DNA of 44,530 nt from Candidatus Woesearchaeota archaeon (GTDB taxonomy: Archaea > Nanobdellota > Nanobdellia > Woesearchaeales > WJKL01), in contig WJJM01000069.1 of assembly GCA_014729675.1 (NCBI GenBank), positions 1 through 44,530 on the forward strand. The letters run 5' to 3'. The position numbers and the translations under genes are program-made. Below, piece by piece: positions 6,293 to 44,530 of this stretch (positions are counted from its first letter, which is position 1; every line of letters starts with the position of its first letter). The notes beneath the pieces are model-generated. The model was not told where the DNA came from, did not search any database, and worked only from the letters and a program-made list of their open reading frames with translations.

Positions 6293-6322
6293 AAAGATTT
6301 TTAAACCAATAAAAAAATATTG

Positions 6323-6935: not shown

Positions 6936-6984
6936 AATCATAGATGATGATTTGCTGTTTTTAAAGGTTAGCACAAAAGAAAAA

Positions 6985-6994
6985 TTATATAAAT
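6985..6994 (+). promoter_or_regulatory. TATA box of the gatC-A-B operon
   Basis: TTATATAAAT is centred about 26 bases before the gatC start ATG 7016, predicting a leaderless operon transcript. Confidence 0.6.
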
Positions 6995-7015
6995 GAACAG
7001 ATTTTTATCGAGGAT

Positions 7016-24547: not shown

Positions 24548-24846
24548 TATATCATATTCATAAAAAAGGCGGTTCAAATATCCAGGAGGCATATAAAAAA
24601 TGTGACAAAAAAAAGCAAAACATCACAGAAATCACACTAGGAGTTTTCCTAGCCCAAGAGGCAGGCATGTGACAGTGAAGCAGAAATAGTGACGCTATAA
24701 GGCCTTGTCTCTTATTTATATTCATACCCTCTAAAAATACCCTCGATTTCCGTGGCAGGCGCACCCCACCCCTCTAATTCTAAGCGCCTGTACGATTTTT
24801 TTTAGTGTGGAATATAGAAAAAGATTTAAAGAAAAGAGACGTGTCT
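24548..24846. other. 299-base gene-free stretch with hairpins
   Basis: No convincing gene. It contains a hairpin (CTAGGA/TCCTAG, 24637-24652), a minus-strand TATA-like GAATATAAATAAG (about 24709-24722), a C-rich run (24765-24773) and a terminator-like stem at 24756-24790. The base composition is more GC-rich and mixed than in other spacers here, as in RNA genes of AT-rich archaea. An unrecognised small RNA is possible on either strand. Confidence 0.35.
24756..24803 (+). terminator. stem plus T-run before the PocR/GAF-GGDEF gene
   Basis: CAGGCGC (24756-24762) pairs with GCGCCTG (24784-24790), followed by T8 at 24796-24803. This fits an intrinsic terminator for transcripts from the degenerate GGDEF gene and separates it from the next one, whose TATA-like ATTTAAAG lies at about 24823-24830. 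Confidence 0.4.
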
Positions 24847-29190: not shown

Positions 29191-29205
29191 AACGCCTCCG
29201 TAGCA
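29191..29205 (+). repeat. duplicated tRNA 5' end under a TATA box
   Basis: Bases 29191-29205 (AACGCCTCCGTAGCA) are identical to 29288-29302. The first copy lies about 26 bases after a TATA box (TTTTATAAATA, about 29159-29169), so transcription should start near 29191-29193. It is followed by 80 bases able to fold into hairpins (AGCTGA/TCAGTT and TAAATT/AATTTA), with no matching tRNA 3' half. It looks like a remnant of recombination at the tRNA gene. Confidence 0.5.
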
Positions 29206-29289: not shown

Positions 29290-29383
29290 GCCTCCGTAGC
29301 ATAGTAGCTATTGCGGCGGCCTTGTAGATTCAATATTGGATCCAGAAAGCCGCAGGTCATGGGTGCAACTCCCATCGGAGGCT
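29290..29383 (+). tRNA. degenerate tRNA-Thr(UGU)-like gene with short intron
   Basis: The acceptor stem GCCTCCG (29290-29296) pairs perfectly with CGGAGGC (29376-29382). An anticodon stem GCGGC/GCCGC encloses a 28-base loop: with a 7-base loop CUUGUA-A this leaves a 21-base intron (about 29327-29347) that folds on itself, and the anticodon would be UGU (Thr). T stem ATGGG/CCCAT is perfect, but the T loop reads TGCAACT, so U55 is G. The D arm has a 3-base loop and no GG. Loss of both tertiary partners suggests a decaying or integration-damaged gene. The mobile element begins right after it. Confidence 0.6.
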
Positions 29384-29527
29384 TACCTACTAACTGTCCA
29401 AAAAAAGGGAACAACATATATTCCCCTAAAAAGAGCCACTACCCAACAATAACAAACATCCCAACACACCTAACACGGAAGCACACCACTTTCATACTCC
29501 TCCCTATTATACATCTAAGTCATACCC

Positions 29528-29552
29528 CCTGTGCTCCTGTGCTTCCTGTGCT
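29528..29552 (+). repeat. three copies of CCTGTGCT
   Basis: CCTGTGCT is at 29528-29535, 29536-29543 and 29545-29552, spaced 8 and 9 bases. It lies in the low-G part of the origin-like region. Confidence 0.6.
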
Positions 29553-29670
29553 AAAAAAAACATTACTAAACAATAGTAAAAAACAACTCTCTAAAAACAT
29601 TCTTTAGATCCAAACCAAAACACTCTCCTCTTTGACAAATCTCAAAACACTCTTAAAACCCTCAAAACCC

Positions 29671-29720
29671 TTAATAATTCCTAACAATCCTTAACAATCC
29701 TTAACAATCCTTAATTCTAA
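29671..29720 (+). repeat. 10-base iteron-like tandem repeats (TTAACAATCC)
   Basis: Units at 29681-29690 (one mismatch), 29691-29700 and 29701-29710, flanked by degenerate half copies at 29671 and 29711. The 10-base period places each copy on the same face of the DNA helix, as in initiator-binding iterons. Confidence 0.65.
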
Positions 29721-29842
29721 TGACACCTTTTGAAAAAATGAACAAAGTGAATGAACCAAAACATGTCGTTACGAACTCCACCCCACACCCACATACACCC
29801 CCATACAACACCACATTTTACCCCCATCTTACCCTACAATAC

Positions 29843-29880
29843 GTCAATACACACTTTTTTTTAAAAAAGGGTGTATTGAC
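29843..29880. repeat. 38-base inverted repeat at the composition switch
   Basis: Arms 29843-29860 and 29863-29880 are 18 bases each and pair with one mismatch (at position 11 of the arm), separated by TT. The arms start with GTCAATACAC. In either strand it would give a hairpin with an A/T-rich tip; a bidirectional terminator, cruciform origin element or recombination site would all look like this. Confidence 0.7.
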
Positions 29881-29897
29881 AAATTTTAGCGAATAGA

Positions 29898-30020
29898 ATG
29901 AGAGTAGATGTTGAAAAAAAGTGGAGTGATTGGAGAAGATGGAGGTCTAATGTTGTAGGAGATGTGTTTAAGATTCGTTCAATAGGAGAATTTAGCACAG
30001 CAACAACAGAAGCACAGTAG
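29898..30020 (+). CDS. possible 40-residue protein on the plus strand
   Basis: ATG 29898 opens 40 codons to TAG 30018-30020, with a tryptophan/arginine-rich start (WSDWRRWRSN) and a polar C-terminus. It is opposite in direction to every protein gene recognised in the element and lies just after the inverted repeat, in the purine-rich stretch. No TATA box or ribosome-binding site is clear. Possibly a small regulator, possibly chance. Confidence 0.3.
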   Translation: MRVDVEKKWSDWRRWRSNVVGDVFKIRSIGEFSTATTEAQ

Positions 30021-30107
30021 GTATAACTCAGATGTATAATAGGAAAGAGTATAGAACACGTGTGTTTGGTGTGCTGCTGTGTTGAGAAGTTATTTACTTC
30101 GTAGGAG

Positions 30108-33100
30108 TTATAATCTATTATAGATTACATCCCAGACTAGTTGAGAATTTCCTTTATTTTGGTTATTGGTGCTGATGACTTTCCTTCTTCTTTTTTCAGA
30201 AGGCATATCTTTTTGATATCTTTTCTTTTCTTTGTATACACTTCCTTTTTTATAGAACTTGTGTAAGTTTTTTGCTTTCCTTCCTTTCAATAATGTACCG
30301 TCTGTAAGTACTTTCTTTATCCTGAAGTCTGTTAGAGGTGATCTGTCTGTTTCTATCAATGCTTCGTTTATTGCATCCAGTACAGTTTGGTAATCTTTAC
30401 CAAATATCTCTTTTCCAGACTTTGTTTTCCATATCGGTTTGTAAGCTATTACTTTCTTCCCTGTTTTCGGTATGACCATGTTCTTTGGAATTGTTCCACT
30501 TGAACCGACTGGAACATCAGGAGTTCCTGGTGTAGTTGTAGTCATCGGTGGTGTCTTAGGTGTATACGGTGTGTAAGGTGTATTAGGCACATAAGGCGTA
30601 TTTGGAGTGTATGGAGTAAGTTGTGGATAACCATCATATGTAGGTGGGTATTCCTGAATAGGATAGTTCTCTGTGTATGGGCTATCAGTTATCGGATAGG
30701 TTGAATAACTTCCCTTTGGTTTATAATTGTTGTATAATCCTGATCCATATAATCCTAGCAAACTCTTTTTTATGTAAGGTTTATATTTCTCCTGGTATCT
30801 TAGTTTCCTTTGATATCCAGGTGATTCTATGATCCTTTTTATCTTTGCAGTATTTTGTTTACTGTATTCCTTTAGAGCAGATTCATATGCTTTTCCAGCT
30901 ATTTCCTTTGCTTGTTTAGGTGTTATTTTATTTGAGTCTATTTTATTTAATTCTTTGTTTAGAACTTCTAGTGACTCTTTTGTGGGAGCTTTTTCTTCCC
31001 TCCTTAACATCTCTTTCTTGAACTTGTTTTTAAGTTCAGTTTTAGTTGGGGAATAGCTTTCTTTGAATAAGGACATTTCTTGTCCTTTTCTTACAGTATA
31101 CATGTTTTTATCTATTTTCTTAAATGGATTAAATCTTTCGTTTAATAGCTTTAATTTTAAAGGTATTTCTCCTACTGTATCAAAATATGGATCATATAAT
31201 CTTCCTTCTTGCATAAGTTTAAGAGTGTTTGCTTCTTTTGCTTTATCAAAGGCTTTCTTATTCTTTTTTATCATTTCTGCAGGTAGAGATGGGTTTTCAA
31301 ATGGTAAGTTCTCTTTATATGGAACTTTTTCCCAGTTTCCCATCTTGTTTAGTTTCTGTATTTTTACAGGTTTGCTGTGTTTTCTCAGTAAGCTGTTTAA
31401 TCCTGCAAATTGTGCTGAAGACCTTTGGGCATGTTTATCCTGAAGATATGGTAGCCCTGATAGTTCAGAACCGATTATCTTCTTCCTCATCTGTGTTTCA
31501 AATGTAGGCATCTCTCTTCTTGCCCTATTTGAATATATGTACTTTTCTCCACCGATAAACTTATCTTTTTTCAGTATTTCAGCTATCTTCTTTTTATTCA
31601 TCATTATGTTATTCTCGTCTAGAGAAGGTACATTTAGTTCTCTTTTGATGATATTCCCTTTATGATCTGTTGTTTTTGATAGTTCAGGAACAATTCCTTT
31701 TTCTATCAGATTTTCTGCTGAAGTCAACATCTTGATCTGGTCATTATCTAGATATCTGTATTTCCCTTTATTTTGTTTGTAGAACCCTTGATCTATAAAC
31801 TTAGAGATTCTTTTTAATCTCTTTAGTTTTTTTGGAGACTCTTTTGTAGCTCCTTCTATGGAGTCTTTCCACATGTTTTTTAAGGATTGTATTGGAAATA
31901 CTTGATTTCCCATTTTTATCAAGGGCTGTCTCTCTATCATGGACTTGATCTTTTCTTTTGCAGTTATTCCTCTAAACTTCTTTTTCTGAGCTACATCAGC
32001 CATCCATTCATCTCCTTGTCTCATGGCTCTTATCAGCCTAAATGAATGGTCTTCTGTTGTAGGTACATCAAATGCTATGTTTTCAGGAGTAATTTTACCT
32101 GTTTCATCTATTAGATGTCCTTCGAAAAACAGTCCTCTTCCTTTTTTTACGTTTGTTGTTTCTTTTCCTATCATTGATGGATCAAGAACATCAGCAGATA
32201 AGCTCATAGGCGGTTCTCCTTCTATTGGTATATATCCTGTTTTTAGGCTTATATCATCTATCTTTGCTTTTTGAGGCTTTCCAGTTAATTTATCTAGAGT
32301 TTCTTTAAATCTTAGTGCTTGTTTTTTGTTTAATTTTCTTACTTGTCCTGTTTCAACGTCTATGTCTTTTGTGGGCATATCTTCTTCTTTACCGTATTTT
32401 TCTTTCCATTCTCTTGATCTTTTTATAGAATCAGGTTCTTTGAATGGGAGGTCTTTTGAGTAAGAGACATCTTCAAATCCTTTAGGAACTCTTTTGAAAT
32501 CATCCACTTTGTATTTTCTTATTGTTGGGTAATTTAGTTTTATCTCTTTTACCCTTTTTTGTGGTTCAAGATTTCTCATCTTTTTTGTTAGTGCATCAAA
32601 CTCGTTTTCTGACATCTTGAATATATTTGAATCACCATAAGCTTTGTCCATAGCTTCTTTAAAAGGAATATCTTCTCCCATTAGTTTGATGATTAGTTCA
32701 TCTGAGTCAAGTTTGTATCTGTTTTTCTTCCCTTTTTCGAATCTTGCTTGACCTTTCGATTTCTTTATTTGGTCTTGGTTTTTTATGTATCTTTGAAGCA
32801 TAGCTTCTTCCATTATGCTTCCTTTTCCTATTGAGAGAGGGAATGATTCAGATAATGATTTACTTAGTGCTATTTGTTCAGGAGTTATTCCTTTTATATT
32901 TTCAAAATCTATAGGACTTCTTCTTAGATTATCTTTTATTTGTTTTGCTCTTTGCATGATCTTTGATCTAAATTCATTTAATGTCTTTGCAGAACGTATG
33001 TCTATAAACTCCTGATTCTTTTTGTTTATTTTATTGTAATAGTCTCTGTGTGCCTGAGGGATTATACCTTCTTGTTTGTTTTTCCCTATACTTTCTATGT

Positions 33101-35504
33101 AGGGTAAATGTTTTATTCCTTCTGGCATCTCTATGTTTTCTGGGACTTTTAGATCTTTTGCTGAATATGAACCTTTCTGATCCTTAGATACCATATCCAG
33201 ATCTCCTATCTTTGATGGTTCTATTTCAGATACTTTATCTATCTCATTTATGAATCTTTTGAAGTTAGGTATTGACCCAAAATCATAAGCTGAACCTGCT
33301 GGGATAAAGTTATCATCTTTTAATATATTCATCTGTGTATTTCTTGTTTTTCCTTCAGGTAGATTCCTTATAACTCTTCCTGTTATCATGATTGGTTGAT
33401 TTAGTTTCCCTGTTTTGTCTGATGCTTCGCTTAGAGCTGTATCAAGGATGTCTCCTGCATCTAATCCAGTTATTATCCTTCTTGTTTGAGCAGGAGTTAG
33501 GTCTTCGCTTAATCTTCCACCGTCTGTAAATACATCTTTTAAGGTTCTCCATAGTCTTACTGATGTTTCAGGATCAGTTCCGTACTCTTTTACTAATAGT
33601 TCTTTCTGTCCACTTCCAGTAGAACTGCCTTTCTTTTTGGTATATTGATATAACTTAGGTACACCATATCCTAAAAGAGCTAGACTTGCTAGAGCAGTTG
33701 TTCTTGATCTTGCTGTTGCATCTTTTCCAATTAAAGCATCATACATCCCTGTTATAGAATCAGTTATTGGATTTCTTCTGAATCCTGTATAAATTAATTC
33801 AGGTGTTTCCATTCCTGCTTCCCTTATTGCGTTTTTAGGAGTGTCATATAATCCTAATAGAATATCTTTATTGAGGTTATATAGATCAGAATCTTTTATC
33901 ACTTCTGGTACAGTATTGTCTATTTTACTTCCTGTTAATGCTAACAAGTTAGAATCATAGACCCTATCAAACCTTTCTCTCCATTTATTTAGGCTTCTGT
34001 CTGTTTCTTTGAATTCTTTATACTGTTGAGCTGGAGTTAGATCTGTTGATTCAGAAGTTTTATCTGCAAACTTTTTGTGTAGCCATTCATCAGAACTTCC
34101 TCTCATTTCCTCTACTTCAGCTAATTTCTCTTTGTTGTTTTTAAAGTAATTATCAAATCCTAAAAGGTCTGCTCCTTTTCTGAATAGATAAGAATCTTTG
34201 TATTTGTTTCTTAATCCTGATTCTGCTTCTTTTTCCCAGAATGGTTTATCTTTGTTAATCGTGATAGTCGGACTCTCTGGGATATTATAATTCCTATAAG
34301 AATCCATGTTATAGGGTTCACTATTGTTACGATTAACATCCATAATACTTCTTCCATTGTATGGGGTATCTCTAATATCATCTTTATCCCTCCTGTTATT
34401 TAGTGTATAATCCCATAATAGTTCGTTTTCTTTAGCAAAGAATGGATTATTATTTAATCTTTTCGATTCTTTCAACGCTTTCTTATCATAGAAGTTTTCG
34501 AGTCTCCTTTTCATGGACTCGTATTTTGCTATTTGTTTATTGTAATTTGAAATTGCAGAGGTTGTTGCATTATGTCCTTTCTGCTTCGTGATGTCTATTT
34601 TTACAGGATCTCCTGATTCTGTTTTCCAGTCTTTTAGTCCTTCTTTAGAGTTGTATATCTTTCCTGTTGTTCTTCCTGACCTATCTATGTAAACAACATT
34701 ATAGTCTTTTCCTCCCTGTGTAGGAGTCCAGTTTGGATTAGAAGAGTAGTATACAGATGTTCCATCATTTGTCTTCTTTATAGGACTTACTTTTTTTTCA
34801 TACCTATTTTTGTCGTATTCTTTCCTCTCTTTCTCTCCTGTGAGGTAGTTTTCATATCTTTTTGATTCTAAGTCTCCGTCATCATAGCCATATCTCCACC
34901 TTTCTGTTTTCATCCCACTTTTCCATTTCTCTTTATCTGTTAGTTCTACAGTTTCATCTCCTGAATCTTCTCTGAAAGTCATGCTTTTATATCTTTTATA
35001 GGTTCTTTCTGGTGTTCCATCTTTATCATAAGAAATAATATTGGACTCTTTTATAAATGGTCTGTAACGTCTATGATCAGAATTATCATCTGCATCTTCA
35101 GTATATATTTCTCTTTTTATGTATGCTATTGGTCTCTCTTGATTATCAAACTTCACTTCAAGAGGGATATAATTATCTTCATTTCTTCTTCCTCTATCTT
35201 TCCAGCTTGTGTATTTATTTGATTTGTAGATCCTTTTTATAGTTCCGTCTTCTCTTTTCTCTATCTTTATATCAGGATCTTTCTTTAGTTCTTCTATCTC
35301 TTTTTGTGAAACTCCTGTTATCTTTTTCTCTTGTGAAGAGATTCTTCCTCTTGTCTCTTCCTGTTTTTTAGCAAGGACTGCTTTTTGCTCTTCTGCTTGT
35401 TTTTTCTTTGCTCTAAGTTGTAGTAGTTTGTGTTTTGCTTTCCTCTTGTTTGCAGAATACTTTAAGTTCTTTGCAGTTAGTTTGATCTGTTGTGAGATAT
35501 TCAC
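30108..35504 (-). CDS. giant 1798-residue element protein of unknown function
   Basis: Basic, hydrophilic and very large. Residues 1-70 form a coiled coil; about 75-290 contain five YD/RHS-like short beta repeats with the pattern D-x-x-G...x-I-Y (for example REDGTIKRIY and DRSGRTTGKIY); one hydrophobic segment at 602-620 (TALASLALLGYG); the middle is charged helix; about 1600-1660 is a proline/threonine/tyrosine repeat (TPYTPNTPYVPNTPYTPYTP); the C-terminus is basic. No enzyme motif was seen. It is the last gene of the minus-strand array. Possible roles: virion interior or ejected protein, or a polyvalent protein. No family recognised. Confidence 0.7.
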   Translation of the reverse strand: MNISQQIKLTAKNLKYSANKRKAKHKLLQLRAKKKQAEEQKAVLAKKQEETRGRISSQEKKITGVSQKEIEELKKDPDIKIEKREDGTIKRIYKSNKYTSWKDRGRRNEDNYIPLEVKFDNQERPIAYIKREIYTEDADDNSDHRRYRPFIKESNIISYDKDGTPERTYKRYKSMTFREDSGDETVELTDKEKWKSGMKTERWRYGYDDGDLESKRYENYLTGEKERKEYDKNRYEKKVSPIKKTNDGTSVYYSSNPNWTPTQGGKDYNVVYIDRSGRTTGKIYNSKEGLKDWKTESGDPVKIDITKQKGHNATTSAISNYNKQIAKYESMKRRLENFYDKKALKESKRLNNNPFFAKENELLWDYTLNNRRDKDDIRDTPYNGRSIMDVNRNNSEPYNMDSYRNYNIPESPTITINKDKPFWEKEAESGLRNKYKDSYLFRKGADLLGFDNYFKNNKEKLAEVEEMRGSSDEWLHKKFADKTSESTDLTPAQQYKEFKETDRSLNKWRERFDRVYDSNLLALTGSKIDNTVPEVIKDSDLYNLNKDILLGLYDTPKNAIREAGMETPELIYTGFRRNPITDSITGMYDALIGKDATARSRTTALASLALLGYGVPKLYQYTKKKGSSTGSGQKELLVKEYGTDPETSVRLWRTLKDVFTDGGRLSEDLTPAQTRRIITGLDAGDILDTALSEASDKTGKLNQPIMITGRVIRNLPEGKTRNTQMNILKDDNFIPAGSAYDFGSIPNFKRFINEIDKVSEIEPSKIGDLDMVSKDQKGSYSAKDLKVPENIEMPEGIKHLPYIESIGKNKQEGIIPQAHRDYYNKINKKNQEFIDIRSAKTLNEFRSKIMQRAKQIKDNLRRSPIDFENIKGITPEQIALSKSLSESFPLSIGKGSIMEEAMLQRYIKNQDQIKKSKGQARFEKGKKNRYKLDSDELIIKLMGEDIPFKEAMDKAYGDSNIFKMSENEFDALTKKMRNLEPQKRVKEIKLNYPTIRKYKVDDFKRVPKGFEDVSYSKDLPFKEPDSIKRSREWKEKYGKEEDMPTKDIDVETGQVRKLNKKQALRFKETLDKLTGKPQKAKIDDISLKTGYIPIEGEPPMSLSADVLDPSMIGKETTNVKKGRGLFFEGHLIDETGKITPENIAFDVPTTEDHSFRLIRAMRQGDEWMADVAQKKKFRGITAKEKIKSMIERQPLIKMGNQVFPIQSLKNMWKDSIEGATKESPKKLKRLKRISKFIDQGFYKQNKGKYRYLDNDQIKMLTSAENLIEKGIVPELSKTTDHKGNIIKRELNVPSLDENNIMMNKKKIAEILKKDKFIGGEKYIYSNRARREMPTFETQMRKKIIGSELSGLPYLQDKHAQRSSAQFAGLNSLLRKHSKPVKIQKLNKMGNWEKVPYKENLPFENPSLPAEMIKKNKKAFDKAKEANTLKLMQEGRLYDPYFDTVGEIPLKLKLLNERFNPFKKIDKNMYTVRKGQEMSLFKESYSPTKTELKNKFKKEMLRREEKAPTKESLEVLNKELNKIDSNKITPKQAKEIAGKAYESALKEYSKQNTAKIKRIIESPGYQRKLRYQEKYKPYIKKSLLGLYGSGLYNNYKPKGSYSTYPITDSPYTENYPIQEYPPTYDGYPQLTPYTPNTPYVPNTPYTPYTPKTPPMTTTTPGTPDVPVGSSGTIPKNMVIPKTGKKVIAYKPIWKTKSGKEIFGKDYQTVLDAINEALIETDRSPLTDFRIKKVLTDGTLLKGRKAKNLHKFYKKGSVYKEKKRYQKDMPSEKRRRKVISTNNQNKGNSQLVWDVIYNRL
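30541..30620 (-). repeat. tandem repeat coding the Pro-Thr-Tyr stretch of the giant protein
   Basis: Degenerate units of about 18 bases with GGTGT(A/G)T(A/T) cores repeat within the coding sequence and encode alternating TPYTPN/TPYTPK blocks. Such repeats change copy number easily and give a flexible extended linker. Confidence 0.55.
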
Positions 35505-35633
35505 TTGTTCTCACCTCTAATAAGATTAGAATTCAGTTTCTTTTCTTCTATTATTCTGTTCATTTTGTTTCTTTTGAAAATAAAATAAGAAAAAATATCA
35601 GGAGATAGATCTTCTATTCCTGAGTGTGTTGTT

Positions 35634-35981
35634 TTACCAAGTTACGAACTCAGTAACTATCTGTGCTATTGCGATTATACCAACAACAGCAAGTACACCT
35701 GAACCAGAAACCGCAGTTATCTGATTGTTATATGTATTTGCTATGTCAGATACTCCTGACCAAGTTGTGGCGTTGCACATCCCAGATGTGATTGGTGTGT
35801 TACTTGATGTTATTGTCCATCCGATTAAACTTAATCCCGTATAAAACGGAGATGATGTACAATTCATCACAGTACCGAATGTACTGAGGATAGTTCCACC
35901 TACGTAAAGTGCTAAGATAGTGTAAACTAGCTTTTTAACAACACGATTTATGTTAAATCTTTTGTTGAATCTTACCGCCAT
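35634..35981 (-). CDS. capsid-like two-TM protein, long paralogue (115 aa)
   Basis: Residues 1-15 are basic (AVRFNKRFNINRVVKK), then hydrophobic segment 1 (about 17-35, LVYTILALYVGGTILSTFG), a Gly/Ser/Thr-rich extracellular loop, and hydrophobic segment 2 (about 93-112, GVLAVVGIIAIAQIVTEFV). This matches the two-helix hairpin layout of spindle-shaped virus major capsid proteins (fusellovirus VP1/VP3 type). It differs from the next gene mainly by about 26 extra residues with two cysteines in the loop (NTPITSGMCNATTWSGVSDI). Shine-Dalgarno GGTGAGGT lies just before the start. The capsid role is inferred from layout. Confidence 0.65.
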   Translation of the reverse strand: MAVRFNKRFNINRVVKKLVYTILALYVGGTILSTFGTVMNCTSSPFYTGLSLIGWTITSSNTPITSGMCNATTWSGVSDIANTYNNQITAVSGSGVLAVVGIIAIAQIVTEFVTW

Positions 35982-35992
35982 TTTACATTACC

Positions 35993-36262
35993 TCACCAAG
36001 TCACGAATTCGGTCACTATCTGTGCTATTGCGATTATACCAACAACAGCAAGTACACCTGAACCAGACGTAGCAGTGATTTGATTACCAGTAACAGTCCA
36101 TCCTATCAAGCTCAAGCCTGTATAGAAAGGGGACGAAGTTCCGTTCATCACATTACCGAATGTGTTCAAGATAGTTCCACCTACGTACAATGCCAAGATT
36201 GTGTAGACAAGTTTCTTAACAACACGGTTTATGTTAAACCCTTTGTTAAATTTTATAGCCAT
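35993..36262 (-). CDS. capsid-like two-TM protein, short paralogue (89 aa)
   Basis: The first gene after the capsid promoter. Nearly identical to the 115-residue paralogue in residues 1-57 and in the C-terminal 30, but without the cysteine-containing loop insert. A strong GAGGAGGTC ribosome-binding site is 7 bases upstream of ATG 36262, and a leader with two competing hairpins precedes it. High expression is implied, as expected for a major capsid protein. Family by layout: small proteins with two hydrophobic helices in spindle-shaped archaeal viruses. Confidence 0.65.
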   Translation of the reverse strand: MAIKFNKGFNINRVVKKLVYTILALYVGGTILNTFGNVMNGTSSPFYTGLSLIGWTVTGNQITATSGSGVLAVVGIIAIAQIVTEFVTW

Positions 36263-36290
36263 ATTTCTGACCTCCTCTTTTTTTATGGGG

Positions 36291-36330
36291 GTCTGTTAGA
36301 ATAAGCTGAACAGACCGAATCACCGGTCTG
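36291..36330 (-). promoter_or_regulatory. mutually exclusive hairpins in the capsid leader
   Basis: Stem 1: GTCTGTT (36291-36297) with AACAGAC (36309-36315). Stem 2: CAGACC (36311-36316) with GGTCTG (36325-36330). They share 36311-36315, so only one can form. They lie in the predicted 5' leader between the promoter (36357-36381) and the capsid start codon. They could stabilise the mRNA or switch its translation. Confidence 0.5.
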
Positions 36331-36356
36331 CCCGATATAAAGAGTAAAACTAAACT

Positions 36357-36381
36357 CCTTTATAAGTCTGCCTGATATGGA
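36357..36381 (-). promoter_or_regulatory. element promoter block upstream of the capsid genes
   Basis: Plus-strand text CCTTTATAAGTCTGCCTGATATGG; read on the minus strand it is CATATCAGGCAGAC followed by TTATAAAGG, that is a conserved upstream block plus a TATA box. The same block, with three changes over 22 bases, is at 41281-41302. A partial copy (TCTGCCCGATATAAAG) is at about 36327-36342. Confidence 0.55.
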
Positions 36382-36383
36382 CG

Positions 36384-36608
36384 CTATTTATTTGATAAAA
36401 GCCCTTCAAGGGTCATTCCTAGTCCTAAAAATATGATTATTATTCCTACCCATACTGCATCTGTTTCTACGTAAGCCATACCTAATCCAAGTAAAAAGTA
36501 TAATAGTCCTGCAAATAACTTGCCTATTTTCCCTGATTTGTATGTAGCTAGGAATATTATGATTCCTGCAACACCGATTAATATGTTAACGTCTGTTCCT
36601 CCAGCCAT
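36384..36608 (-). CDS. small membrane protein (74 aa)
   Basis: Two to three hydrophobic segments (about 7-24, 31-45 and 50-68) with a short lysine/glycine loop (YKSGKIGK) between them. Its start codon is 1 base downstream of the stop of the 244-residue protein gene. Likely a virion or virus-encoded membrane protein. Not recognised. Confidence 0.6.
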   Translation of the reverse strand: MAGGTDVNILIGVAGIIIFLATYKSGKIGKLFAGLLYFLLGLGMAYVETDAVWVGIIIIFLGLGMTLEGLLSNK

Positions 36609-36609
36609 T

Positions 36610-37344
36610 TTACCAAAAATCCCTCTTTTTTACTTTTGTTTTGTTTTTTTCGTCTTCCAGCAACTTGTTTCTTATTCTTCTCTTTCTAACAGGAGTTATA
36701 GGTATTCCTCTCTTTCTCATTTTCTCTAATGTGTTCAAAAACTTCTCCTCAAAGCCGAATCCACTTATTATTTTCTGTTTTCTCTTCTTTTCTCCTATAT
36801 ATGGGCTTATTTCTTCCATTTTCTTGTTCTTCTCCCCTTTTGCTATCTTCATCTTGTCATCTATTGAAGACTTGTTTTTATTTGTTGAGAACCATTCCAT
36901 CAGTTCTCCTTTTCCTAGTCCGTGTTTTTTCTGGAATAATTTAGCTTTCTTGTGTTTAGATATAGCTTGTCTTTCCATATCCATTCTTTTCAGCTCTTTT
37001 TTGTTTATCGAGAACCCTTTATTCCTATTGTATTTTACAGGTCTTACTATCTCTCCTGTTTTAGAGGATAATCCTGTTATGAAGTTCTGTAAGCTTCTTA
37101 TGCTTGAAGCTTCTATTACAAATGCGAATATTGAAATTAGGTATATTGAAAAGTTGATGTGTATTCCGCTTATTAGCCATCCTAAACATAAAGGGAAAGC
37201 TAATATTTTCCAGTCATCTGTCCTTCTTGTGATAGTAGCCATACTTAAAAATATGAACATTAGTTGCACTATGTAACCGCTTCCGAAGAAGAAGGTATTG
37301 TTGAATACGTTGTCCAATAATGTAATTGCCAGTTCTATTCCCAT
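36610..37344 (-). CDS. membrane protein with long basic cytoplasmic tail (244 aa)
   Basis: The first 90 residues hold about four hydrophobic segments; the remaining 150 are strongly basic and helical (KKKHGLGKGELMEWF, VRKRRIRNKLLEDEK). Such a tail could contact nucleic acid inside a virion. It follows the 133-residue membrane protein gene by one base. No family recognised. Confidence 0.6.
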   Translation of the reverse strand: MGIELAITLLDNVFNNTFFFGSGYIVQLMFIFLSMATITRRTDDWKILAFPLCLGWLISGIHINFSIYLISIFAFVIEASSIRSLQNFITGLSSKTGEIVRPVKYNRNKGFSINKKELKRMDMERQAISKHKKAKLFQKKHGLGKGELMEWFSTNKNKSSIDDKMKIAKGEKNKKMEEISPYIGEKKRKQKIISGFGFEEKFLNTLEKMRKRGIPITPVRKRRIRNKLLEDEKNKTKVKKRDFW

Positions 37345-37345
37345 T

Positions 37346-37747
37346 TTATGTACCTTTCCTGTTCTTTAATACCAATACCAATTCAAGACCTAATAGTAAA
37401 GCGAACATGCTTCTTATTAGGTTCATTATAGAGGTTATTATCTTTTCAAATGTTCCATCTTCATTCCTTGAAGGTATTTTCCTCATTCCGTCTACAAACA
37501 GAGACCATAAGGTCATCTGTCCTCCTTTCTCATCTCCGAATGAATCTGCGTTTAGTTGGTCTTCGCTGTCAGATGGAGTATCTCCAAAGTCATCTCTAAA
37601 GAACTTTGAATGTGCTCCCATCTGGTCTAGTTCATTTGAAACATCCTGATGGGAATATGCTGTATTGTTGTACATAGCTGTTCCTGAAAATAATAAGATG
37701 TTGATCATTACAGTTATTATCAGTATTCTTTGTGTTGTTAATCCCAT
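37346..37747 (-). CDS. membrane protein with N-terminal signal and C-terminal helix (133 aa)
   Basis: Hydrophobic residues 8-24 (ILIITVMINILLFSGTAM) could be a signal or anchor; an acidic exposed domain (about 30-100, DDFGDTPSDSEDQLNADSFGD) follows; a second hydrophobic segment lies at about 108-127. Tightly packed between its neighbours. Probably a membrane-embedded surface protein of the element. Confidence 0.6.
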   Translation of the reverse strand: MGLTTQRILIITVMINILLFSGTAMYNNTAYSHQDVSNELDQMGAHSKFFRDDFGDTPSDSEDQLNADSFGDEKGGQMTLWSLFVDGMRKIPSRNEDGTFEKIITSIMNLIRSMFALLLGLELVLVLKNRKGT

Positions 37748-37748
37748 C

Positions 37749-40448
37749 TTATTCCGAGTACACCTTTTTTATGTAGTTTAATGCATAGTATGATCCGACT
37801 ACCATTGTTAGCCAATATCCGCTTCCTACGATTATAGGCATCATTCCAGCTCCTACGAAGAATACGGTTGTCCCTACTCCTCCTGATCTTGTTCCTGTTT
37901 CTTCTTCCTGTGCTCCGAACAAGATGCCTGTTATTCCTGCTAAGAGGATTATCACTACCCATCCTATGAACCATTTTGTTTTTTCATCTATAAAATCAGG
38001 TTCAGATGTTATTGTTTTGTTTATAAATTGATATTCTATAGTAAAGTTTCTGTATGTTTCACCGTCTAGTATAAGTTCAAAGGTAATATCTTCTGTACCT
38101 GTCTGTGAAAAGTCTCTTTCTGGTATCAGTTCAAAGTAACCTATATCTTCTGAATCTAAAGATATAGTCTGGTTTCCTAATCCTATCCCTTTTCTATAAG
38201 ATGTAGTATATGATACTGAACTTCTTCCGAGTGCGAGTATTCCTCCATATATTGTATTTGTTCTATCATCAAATCTTCTGGGTACTTGAAGATATATTCC
38301 TCTATCTGTTGAGATCAGGGATCTTTCTAATGTTATTATATAAGGGAATATGTCTGAGGTGTTTGTTAAGTCAGCATTTTTTGTTAAGTTTCTTTCATAG
38401 ATGTAGCCGTCTTTTATTACTTCTAATAATATATCTGTTTTTGAGTCCATGTAGAATCTTAACATTCCCTGTGCATCTGTTAGTCTTTGACCTGCAAATA
38501 AGTATTCTTTTGTACTAAATATCTTTGGTTCTGAAAAGCTTAATCTTACTAGTGCATTTTCTAATGGTCTGTTACTTGTGTCCATTACTTTAATCCACAA
38601 CTCTTTTGAAGGATTATCTATTATTGAGAGTGTCTTATTTATTTGGGTAGTCCAGTCATTTAGATATTCAAAGTATTGATAATAAAACTGATTTGACATA
38701 TTACATGTTCCATTTCCTATATATACGCTTATCTTCTCTTGAGTAAGATTCTTCTGATTTGAAGCAAATGTAGAATTACAAAATGAATAAGTACTTTCAC
38801 TTCCGTCTGAAATATATCCACTTCTATTTACTGGACTTCCATCTGAATCATAAAAAGTTAATATAAGTTCTTTAGGATCTAATTCAAGACTTATTGTTTC
38901 ATTCATTTCTGAAATATTTAAATTAAATGTTTCATCTAAATTTAAATTAGAAAGATCTTTTACAACTGTGTTTATAAGGATGCTTTCTCCTCCGTTATCT
39001 ATGATATCACTTAATTGGATTGTGATAGGGACACTTGAATATGAACTATTTATTGTGGTCATATTTACTTTTATGTTATCTAGAGTTGAACCGGTATAAT
39101 CTGTTACAGATATTGTTATTATATGATCTATAGTATCATCAGCTATATATGCACTTGAACTATTTACTCCTGAGTGAGTTGTATTTACCCTACAATAAAA
39201 TTCCAAAGCATCCATATAGTCAGTATTATTTATTTCATATTGATTTGAACTTTGTTCTGTCATTCTTGAATCGTTTAAGTTATAAATATAGTAACTTATA
39301 GATTCAGCATAAGGTGTTGGATTTGTATAAGTACAGTTTAATGTTATATTATTTCCAACCATAGCAGATGAATAAGTTCCTCCAAAATAAGATATATCTA
39401 TCGGTTCGTGTATATGTATTGTCTTTTCTGTTGTTGAACTATTATCTCCTTTATCATTCGTACAATTTATAGTGTATACCCATTCTCCATTAGCTAAAAT
39501 ATTTCCAAAAGAAACAGCTTGTTCTAATCCTGAAGAGAGTCCGTTTTGTGTTCCTTCAACAGATCCATTTATATATAAAGTACAAGAAGTTGTATTTGAT
39601 GAGTTGTATGTTGTATTAAATGTAATAGTAGTAGTGTTTATTATATCCCCATCATTAGGATAAGAATTATCTGATACATTTAATGTAATGCCTGAACTAG
39701 ATCCACAAGGATTATAACCACTTCCTGAATTATAGAGATTCGAAATTTCTAGAGAAGTTAAACTCCGATTATATATTGCAAACTCATCCATTTTAAAATC
39801 ACCTAATTGATCGTTTCTTGCACCTATTTGATATGTAGTATCTGTTGTTATTAAACTAGCCCATCCTCCAGTTTTCCCAGCTTCTGTTGTTTGTTTTGTT
39901 CCATTTAAATATATATCATAAGTTCCACTTGTTCCAGCACTTGCATTATAATTAAATACTAAATGATACCATGTTCCTACACTCATAGTTACATCTGCTC
40001 CAGTCATATCATTACCACTTGATTGTATAAATATAGGACTATCAGTTCCACCATCCCACCCTTTAGAGCATTGTCCTATGAATATATCATAATCTCCTGA
40101 TTGTCCAAAAATTTGTTCCCAATTTGTACATCCAACTGATACTGCTTGGTCTGGATTGTACCAAAAAGAAAAAGCGTATAAATCTTCTGTTAATGGTTCG
40201 CTTATCTGGTCATTAGTTCCATCAAAATCTACTCCATCTGCTATAATACCATTACCTATTTGTGTTGGTTCATTATTTGCTGATTTTGTTCCATTATGTA
40301 ATGGAGTTCCACTTAAATCTTCTATATCTACTCCATTAACAGTATCATTATCAAAAGAATAATAAACTACAGCATCATCCAAAGTAGCAAAAACAAAATT
40401 ACATAATAGAATTATTCCAATTATCCATATCCATGTTTTGTTTACCAT
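37749..40448 (-). CDS. LamG-domain surface adhesin with C-terminal membrane anchor (899 aa)
   Basis: Signal peptide at 1-21 (cleaved near FVFA). LamG/concanavalin-like domain at about 25-240 (VVYYSFDND, GVDFDGTNDQI, WYHLVFNYN, MDEFAIYNRSL), then several Ig-like beta domains (about 250-470), a carboxypeptidase-regulatory-like domain (about 615-690, KVMDTSNRPLENALVRL), and two closing membrane helices (about 825-890). Many N-x-S/T sequons suggest glycosylation. It resembles large tail/adhesin proteins of spindle-shaped viruses, some of which carry concanavalin-like domains. Likely recognises host surface glycans; that role is inferred. Confidence 0.75.
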   Translation of the reverse strand: MVNKTWIWIIGIILLCNFVFATLDDAVVYYSFDNDTVNGVDIEDLSGTPLHNGTKSANNEPTQIGNGIIADGVDFDGTNDQISEPLTEDLYAFSFWYNPDQAVSVGCTNWEQIFGQSGDYDIFIGQCSKGWDGGTDSPIFIQSSGNDMTGADVTMSVGTWYHLVFNYNASAGTSGTYDIYLNGTKQTTEAGKTGGWASLITTDTTYQIGARNDQLGDFKMDEFAIYNRSLTSLEISNLYNSGSGYNPCGSSSGITLNVSDNSYPNDGDIINTTTITFNTTYNSSNTTSCTLYINGSVEGTQNGLSSGLEQAVSFGNILANGEWVYTINCTNDKGDNSSTTEKTIHIHEPIDISYFGGTYSSAMVGNNITLNCTYTNPTPYAESISYYIYNLNDSRMTEQSSNQYEINNTDYMDALEFYCRVNTTHSGVNSSSAYIADDTIDHIITISVTDYTGSTLDNIKVNMTTINSSYSSVPITIQLSDIIDNGGESILINTVVKDLSNLNLDETFNLNISEMNETISLELDPKELILTFYDSDGSPVNRSGYISDGSESTYSFCNSTFASNQKNLTQEKISVYIGNGTCNMSNQFYYQYFEYLNDWTTQINKTLSIIDNPSKELWIKVMDTSNRPLENALVRLSFSEPKIFSTKEYLFAGQRLTDAQGMLRFYMDSKTDILLEVIKDGYIYERNLTKNADLTNTSDIFPYIITLERSLISTDRGIYLQVPRRFDDRTNTIYGGILALGRSSVSYTTSYRKGIGLGNQTISLDSEDIGYFELIPERDFSQTGTEDITFELILDGETYRNFTIEYQFINKTITSEPDFIDEKTKWFIGWVVIILLAGITGILFGAQEEETGTRSGGVGTTVFFVGAGMMPIIVGSGYWLTMVVGSYYALNYIKKVYSE

Positions 40449-40657
40449 ATTCTTAATTTTTTGTTGAAATACAGCAAGTAGCTGTATGAGGGTAGTTTGT
40501 CACTAAGTAATCCTCTGTCTTTTACAGGAAGGATGAAATATTTGCACTTCCTCTCCTTTTTGAACGTTTTTGCTATCTTATGTGTTTGTTCTCTTGAACC
40601 ATATTTATCAAATAAATAATAGTCCTTTCCACTTATCTGTATTATTTTTTCTGCCAT
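40442..40657 (-). CDS. small hypothetical protein before the adhesin gene (71 aa)
   Basis: A basic soluble protein (AEKIIQISGKDYYLFDKYGS) with no membrane segment; its stop overlaps the adhesin start by seven bases. The fold looks beta plus one helix. Unknown. Confidence 0.55.
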   Translation of the reverse strand: MAEKIIQISGKDYYLFDKYGSREQTHKIAKTFKKERKCKYFILPVKDRGLLSDKLPSYSYLLYFNKKLRIW

Positions 40658-40700
40658 CTTTATTCCTCTGAATAACTATAGATAATCTCTTATCTACGGT

Positions 40701-41225
40701 TCAATCTTTTCCTTTGAATCCAAGCATTACTTGCCTGAATGGAAGGAATACTAGGTACATGATGTAACATGCTAAAACTCCTAGCCATCCTAGTATATGT
40801 GTAGTTGAATTTGCATCTGCATTTGATACTGTACTTGTACCACCGCTTACAGTGGATATTTGAAATGTCATATCTGTAAGACCTGCTAGTAATCCGTTTA
40901 CTATCAGGAATATGATGATACATGCTATTGTTCCTAAGAACCAATACAATAGTCCTTTGAATATAGGGAATATGTTTGTTTTTACTTCTGGATTTGATGA
41001 AGATAATACAGCATAAAGAGGATATATGACTGTAGAGCAGATATACATAGCGAAGAAAGAGATCCAAACCATAGCACCAAGATAGGAGTTTGCTCCTGTT
41101 TCAGCTCTTTCTATGTTGATAACTGCATCTATCAAAGCTGAAAAGATTCTCCAACCTAAGTAGAATAGAATGTTCCCAAAGATGAACATTCCTACACCTT
41201 TACCTATTTCATCTATATTACTCAT
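40701..41225 (-). CDS. multi-pass membrane protein (174 aa)
   Basis: Start placed at ATG 41225, which has AGGTGG seven bases upstream; an in-frame TTG further on would add five residues. About four hydrophobic segments (roughly 13-33, 48-73, 90-112, 146-168) with a Thr/Ser-rich loop (ISTVSGGTSTVSNADANST) facing out. The conserved promoter block at 41281-41302 lies 56 bases upstream, so it heads the transcript that includes the adhesin and other membrane genes. Not recognised. Confidence 0.62.
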   Translation of the reverse strand: MSNIDEIGKGVGMFIFGNILFYLGWRIFSALIDAVINIERAETGANSYLGAMVWISFFAMYICSTVIYPLYAVLSSSNPEVKTNIFPIFKGLLYWFLGTIACIIIFLIVNGLLAGLTDMTFQISTVSGGTSTVSNADANSTTHILGWLGVLACYIMYLVFLPFRQVMLGFKGKD

Positions 41226-41278
41226 AAGTGCCACCTGCAAAGAAAAAGATATGTTTACAGGTAGAACTAATTAGAATT

Positions 41279-41302
41279 ACTTTATAAGGCTACCTGATAT
41301 GC
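41279..41302 (-). promoter_or_regulatory. second copy of the element promoter block
   Basis: Plus-strand text ACTTTATAAGGCTACCTGATATG. It matches the capsid promoter block at 36357-36381 in all but three of 22 bases (TTTATAAG, CT, CCTGATATG conserved) and supplies a minus-strand TATA box about 55 bases before ATG 41225. Confidence 0.55.
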
Positions 41303-41353
41303 TTAGTTTCAGAAGTAGCACAAGTGACACTTACAAGGTTTATAATGTCAGAA

Positions 41354-41491
41354 CTATCTCTTCAACTCTTTCTTTATACTTTCAACATCTTGTTCTAGAT
41401 GTCTTACTATCTTAGCTACTCTTATGATAGCAACTACGATAGTTCCTATAGACAATATATTGATTATTGTCCACATGTTGTACATAGACAT
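41354..41491 (-). CDS. 45-residue single-TM protein
   Basis: ATG 41491 has GGAGGTG eight bases upstream. The product is MSMYNMWTIINILSIGTIVV (hydrophobic segment about 8-26) followed by a charged coiled-coil tail (RHLEQDVESIKKELKR). Typical of tiny virus-encoded membrane proteins or holin-like partners. Stop at 41354-41356. Confidence 0.6.
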   Translation of the reverse strand: MSMYNMWTIINILSIGTIVVAIIRVAKIVRHLEQDVESIKKELKR

Positions 41492-41594
41492 ATTCCCACC
41501 TCCATTGGGTTGATTATGAACAAGACAGTTAACGTTAGAGTCATTTTAATAGTTGAGGACTCACTTATTAACTGCCTTGCTTGAATTTGATAGT

Positions 41595-41786
41595 TTAACT
41601 TGGATCTTCTAACAATAATCCAAAAAACATTATTCCTATAATTCCTATTAATATACCAACACCTATTTTTATATATGCGTCTTTTCCCCAAAACATACCT
41701 ATTGCAGTTACTACTCCTAAAATAGTAGAACAGATACATAAGGTTATATATTTGATAATATCTTTTTCTTGTTTTTTAGTTGTCAT
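41595..41786 (-). CDS. 63-residue two-TM protein
   Basis: Basic start (TTKKQEKDIIKY), two hydrophobic segments (about 14-32 and 38-57), short acidic end. A GGAGGCAAAGAA ribosome-binding site precedes ATG 41786. Not recognised. Confidence 0.6.
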   Translation of the reverse strand: MTTKKQEKDIIKYITLCICSTILGVVTAIGMFWGKDAYIKIGVGILIGIIGIMFFGLLLEDPS

Positions 41787-41812
41787 TTCTTTGCCTCCAT
41801 TTCTTAAGTGAT

Positions 41813-41992
41813 TTAGTTATACATTATGTCTGTAATAATGATTGTTACAAGAATTATATATATATCTCTTAGTGAAACCTTTGTTGGATTGCTCATTATA
41901 AGACTATAGAACTCTCCTTTTGTAAGTTCTTTCTTTATACAGATTTCATAAAGAAAAGTGATATCTGGTCTGTTTTTATCTTGCATTATCAT
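41813..41992 (-). CDS. 59-residue SHOCT-like/membrane protein
   Basis: The first half (FLYEICIKKELTKGEFYSLI) resembles a SHOCT-type short helical domain; the second half is a hydrophobic segment (IYIILVTIIITDIMY). Start at ATG 41992 or 41986. The stop is TAA at 41813-41815. Not in conflict with any other gene. Confidence 0.5.
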   Translation of the reverse strand: MIMQDKNRPDITFLYEICIKKELTKGEFYSLIMSNPTKVSLRDIYIILVTIIITDIMYN

Positions 41993-42030
41993 TTTTATTG
42001 TCTGAACATGTATTTTTATTCTCTTTTCTT

Positions 42031-42165
42031 TTATTCATTATAATTAATTGAAGTTGTATTAAATCCTGATCTTAAGGTTAATTTATGTCCTTTTTCTAAA
42101 CATATCATATAGTCTTTTCCATTAAGCTTCATATAAGTATCACAATTTCTACAATAATATATCAC
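42031..42165 (-). CDS. 44-residue zinc-ribbon protein, GTG start
   Basis: The start GTG 42165 overlaps the TGA of the upstream gene (GTGA), so it is read by translational coupling. CRNC (residues 5-8) with C22 and H27 could bind zinc. The C-terminus is polar. Stop at 42031-42033. Confidence 0.5.
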   Translation of the reverse strand: MIYYCRNCDTYMKLNGKDYMICLEKGHKLTLRSGFNTTSINYNE

Positions 42166-42380
42166 TTTATCCTCATCTCTTTAAAGTTCCCACATTTACA
42201 ACATACTATAAGGCTTCTCCATTGTTTGTGGTCTGTCTTTTGTTTGCAAATCTTACAATATAATAATTCTTTTTCCATTTTACAGAAAGGATAGTTTGCG
42301 CATAGCATCTTGCCTTTAGCTGCTATTTGATTTCCTTTTTTGATATGCTTTTTTGCTTTTTCTTTAGTTGTCATCTTCAT
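42162..42380 (-). CDS. zinc-finger protein (72 aa)
   Basis: Basic N-terminus (KEKAKKHIKKGNQIAAKGK), then two or three cysteine pairs (CANYPFC, CKIC, CCKCG), so one treble-clef or double zinc ribbon. Part of a run of three tiny overlapping cysteine-rich genes. Possibly a nucleic-acid-binding early protein of the element. Confidence 0.6.
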   Translation of the reverse strand: MKMTTKEKAKKHIKKGNQIAAKGKMLCANYPFCKMEKELLYCKICKQKTDHKQWRSLIVCCKCGNFKEMRIK

Positions 42381-42507
42381 CTCCTTCTAATAATTCCATA
42401 AAAGCACTATCTTCCATTATCTTTTTATGTTTTCTACAAAGTTTGATATTAGATATATGTTCTAAATCTAAACCTTTGTTATTACAATCTTCGGCATCAC
42501 ATTTCAT
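42364..42507 (-). CDS. 47-residue cysteine/histidine protein
   Basis: ATG 42507 to TAA 42364. The product MKCDAEDCNNKGLDLEHISN continues with an LCRKHKK metal-site-like pair (C and H) and an acidic tail. It overlaps the start of the next gene by 17 bases. A structured-looking leader (42540-42597) precedes it. Confidence 0.5.
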   Translation of the reverse strand: MKCDAEDCNNKGLDLEHISNIKLCRKHKKIMEDSAFMELLEGDEDDN

Positions 42508-42603
42508 CTTATCTTATTTCCTTCATTGTTATTAAACTCTTTTCCCATACGCAAGTGTAGGAAAATCTCATCCGAAAAGTCAAATCTATGAGGTGACATT
42601 CCA

Positions 42604-42813
42604 CTACCCTAAACTATATATAAGTATCACAATAAAGGAAAACAAAAATAATCCTAATATAATCAAACCCCACATTCTCTTATAAGCTTTTTCTATTTCG
42701 TAACACTCTTTTTTCATTTCTTTATAGGTTTGATTGAAAGTATATAGTGTAATAGCCCAAACTACAATATTTGTGAATATTTGTTTGAATGTGGGTATTT
42801 TGTTTTCCTTCAT
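42604..42813 (-). CDS. 69-residue two-TM protein
   Basis: Hydrophobic segments at about 12-26 (IFTNIVVWAITLYTF) and 49-68 (LIILGLFLFSFIVILIYSLG), with a charged amphipathic loop (KEMKKECYEIEKAYKR) between. Unknown. Confidence 0.55.
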   Translation of the reverse strand: MKENKIPTFKQIFTNIVVWAITLYTFNQTYKEMKKECYEIEKAYKRMWGLIILGLFLFSFIVILIYSLG

Positions 42814-42847
42814 ATTTTAAGCCCTATAACTTTGATTGAATTTAATA

Positions 42848-43120
42848 TCAGTCCTTATTAAGTGAGTGCGAAGTACCTTTAGAGTTTAAATCAGGTGCGT
42901 TCTTTATTCTTAATGTAAATGGTATTCTGAATCCTTTTGGTGACCATTTTGAATAGAATAAATAATAACAATATCCTATTTTGGTTAGTTTTCTTAATTG
43001 GTTTCTGGGTTTGTCATATCTTTTATAATTAACTTTTTTAATTTCTAGTAACCAACCAAAAAATAGATACCAAAAGCTATAAGCTACTTGCCAAATTTCG
43101 TGATACCATCTTTTTTTCAT
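42848..43120 (-). CDS. hypothetical protein, aromatic-rich (90 aa)
   Basis: Starts KKRWYHEIWQVAYSFWYLFF, one possible membrane segment at about 10-26, then a basic region. Overlaps the stop of the preceding gene (43117-43120, ATGA). Unknown. Confidence 0.5.
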   Translation of the reverse strand: MKKRWYHEIWQVAYSFWYLFFGWLLEIKKVNYKRYDKPRNQLRKLTKIGYCYYLFYSKWSPKGFRIPFTLRIKNAPDLNSKGTSHSLNKD

Positions 43121-43323
43121 TTTCCCTCTTGTTTTATGAACTTATTTTTAATATTATTAAATACTGTTTCAGCGATATTTCTTTGATTAACATAAGCTAT
43201 TCCTTTAATAAAAAACTTATTCTCAATCTCTTCAAATATCTCTTTGGCTTGCTTTTTCTTAGCTATACGTATATTTTTAGCCATTATTTCTAAATATTCC
43301 TTTTCTTGTTCTTTATTTGTCAT
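43117..43323 (-). CDS. small basic helical protein (68 aa)
   Basis: Start placed at ATG 43323 because AAAGAGGTAAAAAA precedes it; an in-frame ATG at 43353 would add ten residues and overlap the HTH gene stop. Charged helix (KEYLEIMAKNIRIAKKKQAKE) followed by a mixed helix-strand part. Unknown. Confidence 0.55.
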   Translation of the reverse strand: MTNKEQEKEYLEIMAKNIRIAKKKQAKEIFEEIENKFFIKGIAYVNQRNIAETVFNNIKNKFIKQEGK

Positions 43324-43349
43324 TTTTTTACCTCTTTTATTTAAATTAC

Positions 43350-43655
43350 TCATTTATTCATTATTTTCTGTTTATATCTTCTGTGTTTTCTCATAGCTTT
43401 TGTATGCTTTTCTCTATCATAGTATATTGCACTTCCTCCTCTTTCTGCTCTCCTTTGAAGGTCTTGTTTATATTTATCTGGATCACCTATAAACTGGATT
43501 AATCTTCTGGAAACATGAAAAGCTCTTGCTAACTTTCTTTGAGATATCTTTCCATATAACTTTTTTATCTTTACCCTCTCTTCCTCAGTTAATTTAACAC
43601 GCCTATCTTTTCCTTTAGGTAATTTTATCTTATCTGTTTCAAATTTGTATGGCAT
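43350..43655 (-). CDS. HTH DNA-binding protein of phage type (101 aa)
   Basis: A helix-turn-helix at about residues 20-56 (KLTEEERVKIKKLYG, SQRKLARAFHVSRRLIQFI), then a basic segment ending KHTKAMRKHRRYKQKIMNK. This architecture (DRRVKLTEEE..., GDPDKYKQ, YDREKHTKAMR) is a familiar small DNA-binding family in tailed phages and other mobile elements. Likely transcription control or packaging/replication helper for the element. Placed next to the structured RNA at 43742-43864. Confidence 0.75.
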   Translation of the reverse strand: MPYKFETDKIKLPKGKDRRVKLTEEERVKIKKLYGKISQRKLARAFHVSRRLIQFIGDPDKYKQDLQRRAERGGSAIYYDREKHTKAMRKHRRYKQKIMNK

Positions 43656-43741
43656 TTATCTTGCCCATTTGTTTTTTACCATATTATCACCATAATTTCT
43701 GATACATGGTTTGACTATATTTAGGGTTTCTGTTCTTAGTG

Positions 43742-43864
43742 AACCCCACATTAAAGTTTTTGGAAATTGCCAGATTGTCCCTCTTCGCTGTGCGGGACTT
43801 TTGAGTTGTCTGGCTCAACTCCTTGTAGCGAAGCATGATTTCCAAAAGTTTAATTTAAGGGGTT
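43742..43864 (+). ncRNA. unrecognised compact RNA with double pseudoknot
   Basis: A basal stem closes in three blocks: AACCCC 43742-43747 with GGGGTT 43859-43864; ATTAAA 43750-43755 with TTTAAT 43849-43854; TTTTGGAAAT 43758-43767 with ATTTCCAAAA 43838-43847. Inside are hairpin C (GTCCC 43777-43781 / GGGAC 43794-43798) and hairpin B (GAGTTG 43803-43808 / CAACTC 43816-43821). The loop of C (CTTCGCT 43783-43789) pairs with AGCGAAG 43827-43833, and the loop of B (TCTGGC 43809-43814) pairs with GCCAGA 43769-43774. A TATA box CTATATTTA (43715-43723) lies about 26 bases upstream on the plus strand, so it may be made from the strand opposite to the protein genes. The pairing is also possible on the minus strand. 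Confidence 0.6.
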
Positions 43865-43895
43865 TGCGTTAAGAAATCCCTACCTTCAGGTGGAC

Positions 43896-44159
43896 TTATT
43901 TTGGGAGTATGTTATCTTGTTCCTCTTTAAGATTACTTGTGATACTTGCTGATAATATAAAAAGATAAGTTATTATAGATATTATCACCACTTTTAACCA
44001 ATATACAAACCCTGTATAATTATCATAAGTTTTAATCATAATTATGAGTGCTATCATTAATATAAACCATTCCCAAAAATCTTTGGATTTATATTCTTTT
44101 GTCATTTTATTCCTTATTTCTCCTTCTTTTTCTTCCTTTTTATCAAATTTGTATATCAT
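43896..44159 (-). CDS. two-TM membrane protein (87 aa)
   Basis: Charged N-terminal 30 residues, then hydrophobic segments at about 31-45 (WFILMIALIIMI) and 53-73 (LKVVIISIITYLFILSAS). An alternative start ATG 44105 has AAGGA upstream and gives 69 residues. Its start is two bases after the preceding gene. Unknown. Confidence 0.55.
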   Translation of the reverse strand: MIYKFDKKEEKEGEIRNKMTKEYKSKDFWEWFILMIALIIMIKTYDNYTGFVYWLKVVIISIITYLFILSASITSNLKEEQDNILPK

Positions 44160-44161
44160 AG

Positions 44162-44521
44162 TTAAAATATCTCAAATCTAAAATCTTCCCATTTACTTGA
44201 CCATTTCTTTATTTCTATACACTTCCATCCACCTTGTAAAATCAAATAACCATTATATGGTTCATTCATCCAAATCTTTTCTCTACAAATTGGGCAAATT
44301 GTATATTTTAAGATTATATCTTCTTGAAGTTTAAACCTTTTCCAAAACGCTCTCTTTTTTGTTTTTTTAAACATAAACATCGCTTCCAAAAAAGAAGGAG
44401 ACTTTAATTGTGAATCCATTTCCCATTCAAACTCTTCCCCTTTCTTTTTATAAACCCCTTCTTCCAAATCTCTTTCTTCTACAATTATTTTTTCGCAATG
44501 TTCTACAATTATTTTTTTCAT
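44162..44521 (-). CDS. hypothetical protein with one CPxC motif (119 aa)
   Basis: A soluble protein: acidic N-terminal half, a basic middle (KKTKKRAFWKRFKL), a CPIC pair (about residues 87-90) and a tryptophan-rich C-terminus (GGWKC, KKWSSKWEDF) with a third cysteine. A partial zinc site is possible. The first gene of the window on this strand; whatever lies upstream is out of view. Confidence 0.5.
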   Translation of the reverse strand: MKKIIVEHCEKIIVEERDLEEGVYKKKGEEFEWEMDSQLKSPSFLEAMFMFKKTKKRAFWKRFKLQEDIILKYTICPICREKIWMNEPYNGYLILQGGWKCIEIKKWSSKWEDFRFEIF

Positions 44522-44530
44522 GTATATACC

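Follow-up and report, generated by a model that had tools for sequence, protein, structure and literature searches.

From position 29384 to its end, the window (the whole 44,530-nucleotide stretch analysed, which is the entire contig C59 of a source genome of 1.44 Mb in 72 contigs) is, by the strongly supported reading of its sequence, the left part of an archaeal provirus integrated at a tRNA gene, with the rest on a second contig of the same genome, C37. A sequence-only reading had proposed an undescribed virus-like element here, and its status as a provirus is borne out by the integration site, by the empty site in related genomes, and by the presence of an integrase, a family B DNA polymerase (PolB) and a helicase. 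The best reading of this element, known here from its genes alone, is that it is probably a spindle-shaped virus.

Integration site and extent of the provirus

The last host features on C59 are a 207-AA gene and a tRNA (Table 1), and the element starts at the first base 3' of the tRNA as delimited by Rfam. This is the start that the sequence-only reading had chosen; the end it gave reflects where the contig stops, and the element continues for about 22.7 kb on C37. Past position 29384 the GC content falls, and every plausible gene up to the contig end lies on the minus strand, as had been described. The tRNA was called by Rfam and not by ARAGORN. The Rfam alignment places an insert in the anticodon loop, the same intron-bearing tRNA is found in two genomes of the same family (G002 and G003), and we read the anticodon, by eye from this alignment, as UGU (Thr). 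The 12 bases with which the tRNA begins (29290-29301) recur about 96 bp upstream (29194-29205) and may be left over from a previous tRNA or integration.

On C37, a copy of the 19-bp tRNA end (attR) has the tyrosine integrase on one side and host genes beyond. For G002 and G003, the gene order OBG GTPase, PHP, 207-AA gene, tRNA, 152-AA gene and adk is unbroken; in the source genome the first four of these stop at 29383 on C59, and the 152-AA gene and adk start right after the C37 repeat. Because the tRNA directly precedes the 152-AA gene and adk in both relatives, we concluded that C59 and C37 carry the two flanks of one insertion. C37 was chosen by a peptide motif, the repeat and the integrase, the motif (DxDxDGKVN..DC) being one that adjoins a capsid-like gene pair in DeMMO1_7 (G001), a related genome of the same family; the proteins of DeMMO1_7 and C37 that carry it match over 25 residues at 60%. 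The last bases of C59 and the first bases of C37 also share nine bases (GTATATACC), which played no part in the choice, and joining the contigs across them restores the Shine-Dalgarno sequence of the last gene of C59. This overlap supports a single continuous element, with a further gap between the contigs possible. Joined in this way, the element is about 37.8 kb long with a GC content of 31.5% as against 36.5% in the host flanks, and nearly all of its genes on both contigs are on the same strand. No inverted terminal repeats of at least 15 bp were found between the element ends.

Table 1. Features of the C59 part of the provirus and of its integration site (window coordinates)
Feature	Position	Strand	Remarks
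tRNA gene	29290..29383	+	Rfam RF00005, 52.3 bits; integration target, 3' end retained at attL
attL core, 19 bp	29368..29386	+	ACTCCCATCGGAGGCTTAC; identical to attR, C37:22651-22669
A/C-rich end of provirus, apparently non-coding	29387..30107	.	10-bp tandem repeat (TCCTTAACAA)
1798-AA basic hydrophilic protein	30108..35504	-	pI 9.6, net charge +97; GTG start, AGAGGTGA upstream
115-AA capsid-like protein, long paralog	35634..35981	-	26-residue loop insert
89-AA capsid-like protein, short paralog	35993..36262	-	strong Shine-Dalgarno (AGAGGAGGTCAGAAATATG)
74-AA membrane protein	36384..36608	-	hydropathy
244-AA protein	36610..37344	-	N-terminal part hydrophobic, tail basic (hydropathy)
133-AA protein	37346..37747	-	hydrophobic segments close to both ends (hydropathy)
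899-AA LamG adhesin	37749..40448	-	PF13385 E 3e-14; signal-like N-terminal segment, C-terminal membrane segments
71-AA basic protein	40442..40657	-	
179-AA polytopic membrane protein	40701..41240	-	about 4 segments
63-AA membrane protein	41595..41786	-	two segments
59-AA small protein	41813..41992	-	
72-AA basic cysteine-rich protein	42162..42380	-	zinc-ribbon-like by eye
69-AA membrane protein	42604..42813	-	one segment
90-AA basic protein	42848..43120	-	
78-AA basic protein	43117..43353	-	
101-AA protein, possible regulator	43350..43655	-	weak HTH match PF13936 E 0.0066, below cut-off
87-AA membrane protein	43896..44159	-	
119-AA protein	44162..44521	-	Shine-Dalgarno AGAGGTATATACATG visible only with C37 start joined

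Structural-looking genes and capsid candidates

The half of the element on C59 looks like a block of structural genes, and everything that the sequence-only reading had listed there is present at the positions given. The two small capsid-like proteins are paralogs, 90% identical outside the 26-residue insert; the signal peptide and LamG domain of the 899-AA protein are matched by a hydrophobic N-terminal segment and a Pfam hit, several tiny membrane proteins are seen by hydropathy, and the giant basic protein is there. For the reported HTH protein, the gene is found and its HTH match is weak. The 1798-AA protein, possibly an internal or genome-associated virion protein, had no convincing family match in Pfam, PHROGs or further searches; the sole other genome matching it (G049) was rejected, as the match sits in an ordinary cellular region.

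For the capsid candidates, the suggested kinship with fusellovirus VP1 failed at the profile level: hhalign against the SSV1 and His1 capsids gave a probability of 6%, i.e. no detectable homology, and no match was obtained in Pfam, PHROGs or other family searches, fusellovirus VP1/VP3 included. Structure models of both proteins contain two long helices at an AlphaFold pLDDT of about 51-52, too low in confidence to decide on the VP1 hairpin, and Foldseek with such a model returned no significant match. At the hydropathy cut-off used, both segments were called only in the long paralog, and the GRAVY of the pair is 0.6-0.76 as against 1.4 for SSV1 VP1.

Among GTDB genome contigs, the capsid family has one relative, the tandem short/long pair of DeMMO1_7 (contig C199, 883-1528). 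That pair adjoins ordinary cellular-looking genes, including a PIN/RHH toxin-antitoxin-like pair, with no LamG or membrane genes, and may therefore be a remnant or belong to a different element. Searches of 353 genomes from the order and 378 from the class gave no other convincing case of the pair; weak matches in other genomes of the order were rejected, those inspected lying in cellular or spurious frames. Virome searches (IMG/VR) likewise gave nothing for the capsid family, and no relatives of the LamG, 1798-AA, PolB, helicase, DxDxD and 244-AA proteins. These results suggest a kind of virus unseen in the collections searched.

Replication and integration genes

The integrase and replication genes that the sequence-only reading had sought beyond position 44530 are found on C37. 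The integrase (PF00589, E 1.2e-8; archaeal XerA-like, E 2.7e-17) keeps the R, HxxR and Y residues, and its likely ATG lies about 60 bp from attR. The PolB is of the protein-primed type (PF03175, E 5.9e-25; phrog_1907, E 3.5e-32), and its motifs align with those of the MetSV, LCBv1 and His1 polymerases. Its nearest named relatives are those of Methanosarcina spherical virus and LCBv1, at about 24% identity, and it had no match in other genomes when 338 genomes of the order were searched. The third protein, an SF3/P4-D5-type helicase (TIGR01613, E 7.8e-42), is the only convincing Walker A protein in the element. Protein-primed replication normally requires inverted terminal repeats, so their absence fits badly with this mode; should the polymerase indeed use a protein primer, how replication starts in a provirus that lacks such repeats becomes a direct question.

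The absence of a terminase, portal or HK97 capsid noted in the window extends to the C37 half, where as in C59 profile searches found none of these and no packaging ATPase; nor were conjugation genes recognised among the element proteins scanned. C37 also carries a glutamine-amidotransferase-like protein (5193-6302; Cys2, HQRLTTSG and HNG, with a weak partial GlmS match, E 6.7e-6), overlapped by a gene (6295-7122) whose product has amidoligase-like motifs by eye only (GLEIE, HIHVG) and no informative family match. The two may form a peptide-modifying pair.

Kind of virus and host

We favour a spindle-shaped virus because of the layout of the element, which combines the two-helix pair, small membrane proteins, an anchored adhesin, a lectin domain and two arms. 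The spindle-virus gene style described by the sequence-only reading thus holds for the layout, but not for sequence or profile similarity to the SSV1 or His1 capsids. Fuselloviridae (SSV1) share tandem small two-helix paralogs with unequal loop lengths between the helices (VP1/VP3), a tyrosine integrase and a provirus form; in contrast to our element, SSV1 is only about 15 kb with no detectably homologous capsid, and the element has a PolB and an SF3 helicase, and an integrase that is not split on integration. Halspiviridae (His1) share the PF03175-type PolB and, in genes 21-27, the order of capsid, small membrane proteins and signal-peptide/anchored adhesin, but His1 is linear, 14.5 kb long and has terminal repeats, whereas the element lacks such repeats and has an integrase.

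For the remaining groups we relied on published descriptions. Thaspiviridae (NSV1) have an 81-AA two-helix capsid protein and a protein-primed PolB (PMC8491892), although NSV1 is linear, with 27-29 kb and 176-bp terminal repeats. Itzamnaviridae, spindle viruses of ANME-1, have two MCP genes and keep their structural and enzymatic genes in separate arms (PMC9894754), but the larger member codes for an RNA-primed PolB. Thermococcales spindle viruses (PAV1, TPV1) resemble the element in their anchored lectin-domain proteins, two of which, with TM helices, are in the core gene set (PMC12934983); they differ in replicating via MCM, AEP or rolling-circle proteins, and the element has one LamG protein. 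A narrower proposal, which we advance tentatively and with less assurance than the spindle shape itself, is that the element represents a new family of spindle viruses that infect DPANN archaea and integrate at tRNA genes; their capsid would be unrelated by sequence to those known, and a protein-primed-type PolB would be combined, unusually, with an SF3 helicase and an integrase that forms circles.

A spindle-shaped virus of this kind would be excised by its tyrosine recombinase as a circle, the form in which it would also insert at the tRNA, and would be replicated by its own protein-primed-type PolB and SF3 helicase. The two paralogous hydrophobic two-helix proteins would assemble at the cell membrane into a membrane-like, probably spindle-shaped particle enclosing the giant basic protein with the DNA. 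The anchored LamG protein would bind surface glycans of the next host, and virions may exit without lysis, by analogy only.

The anchored adhesin and the many small membrane proteins would also suit another membrane-bound virus, such as a pleomorphic, pleolipovirus-like vesicle in which the LamG protein would be the spike, the small polytopic proteins the matrix and the two-helix pair minor membrane components. The pair is indeed less hydrophobic than SSV1 VP1, and the PolB also aligns with that of a non-spindle virus (Methanosarcina spherical virus). We nonetheless consider such a virus unlikely: tandem two-helix paralogs of unequal loop length fit the organisation of SSV1 VP1/VP3, and we know of no pleolipovirus counterpart of the giant protein. 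Somewhat less likely again is a non-viral integrative plasmid or surface-appendage island, in which the pair would be membrane proteins or resemble pilins, without any virion being made. The lack of a recognised capsid fold and the cellular neighbours of the DeMMO1_7 pair agree with this, but it would leave a structural-looking block, PolB, SF3 helicase and integrase together in one tRNA-integrated unit whose scanned proteins included none recognised as belonging to conjugation. Very improbable is a head-tailed or tailless icosahedral provirus with overlooked capsid genes. The published Woesearchaeales proviruses that our literature search found are head-tailed (PMC11705971) and many proteins of the element are orphans, but searches gave no terminase, portal, HK97 or other such family match, the SF3 helicase alone has a convincing Walker A motif, and the giant basic protein is the only large unassigned gene.

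For the host, the sequence supports an archaeon, with an intron-bearing tRNA and a GatB/GatE-family protein, which we read as GatE, among its archaeal traits. We infer a DPANN host; its order comprises small genomes in more than 80 families. Virus-host pairing for such tiny-genome archaea is usually indirect; here the integrated genome and the empty site in sister genomes tie the putative spindle-shaped virus to its host, and the nearly full gene set yields testable capsid candidates. The host contigs also code for four GGDEF proteins and one HD_5 (HD-GYP-like) protein (window 13594-15012, 17274-17825, 23858-24547 and 24805-26334; C37 34797-36314), the GGDEF (diguanylate cyclase) matches to PF00990 ranging from E 6.5e-47 to 2.1e-29 on archaeal contigs. 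To our knowledge, c-di-GMP signalling has seldom been reported from archaea.
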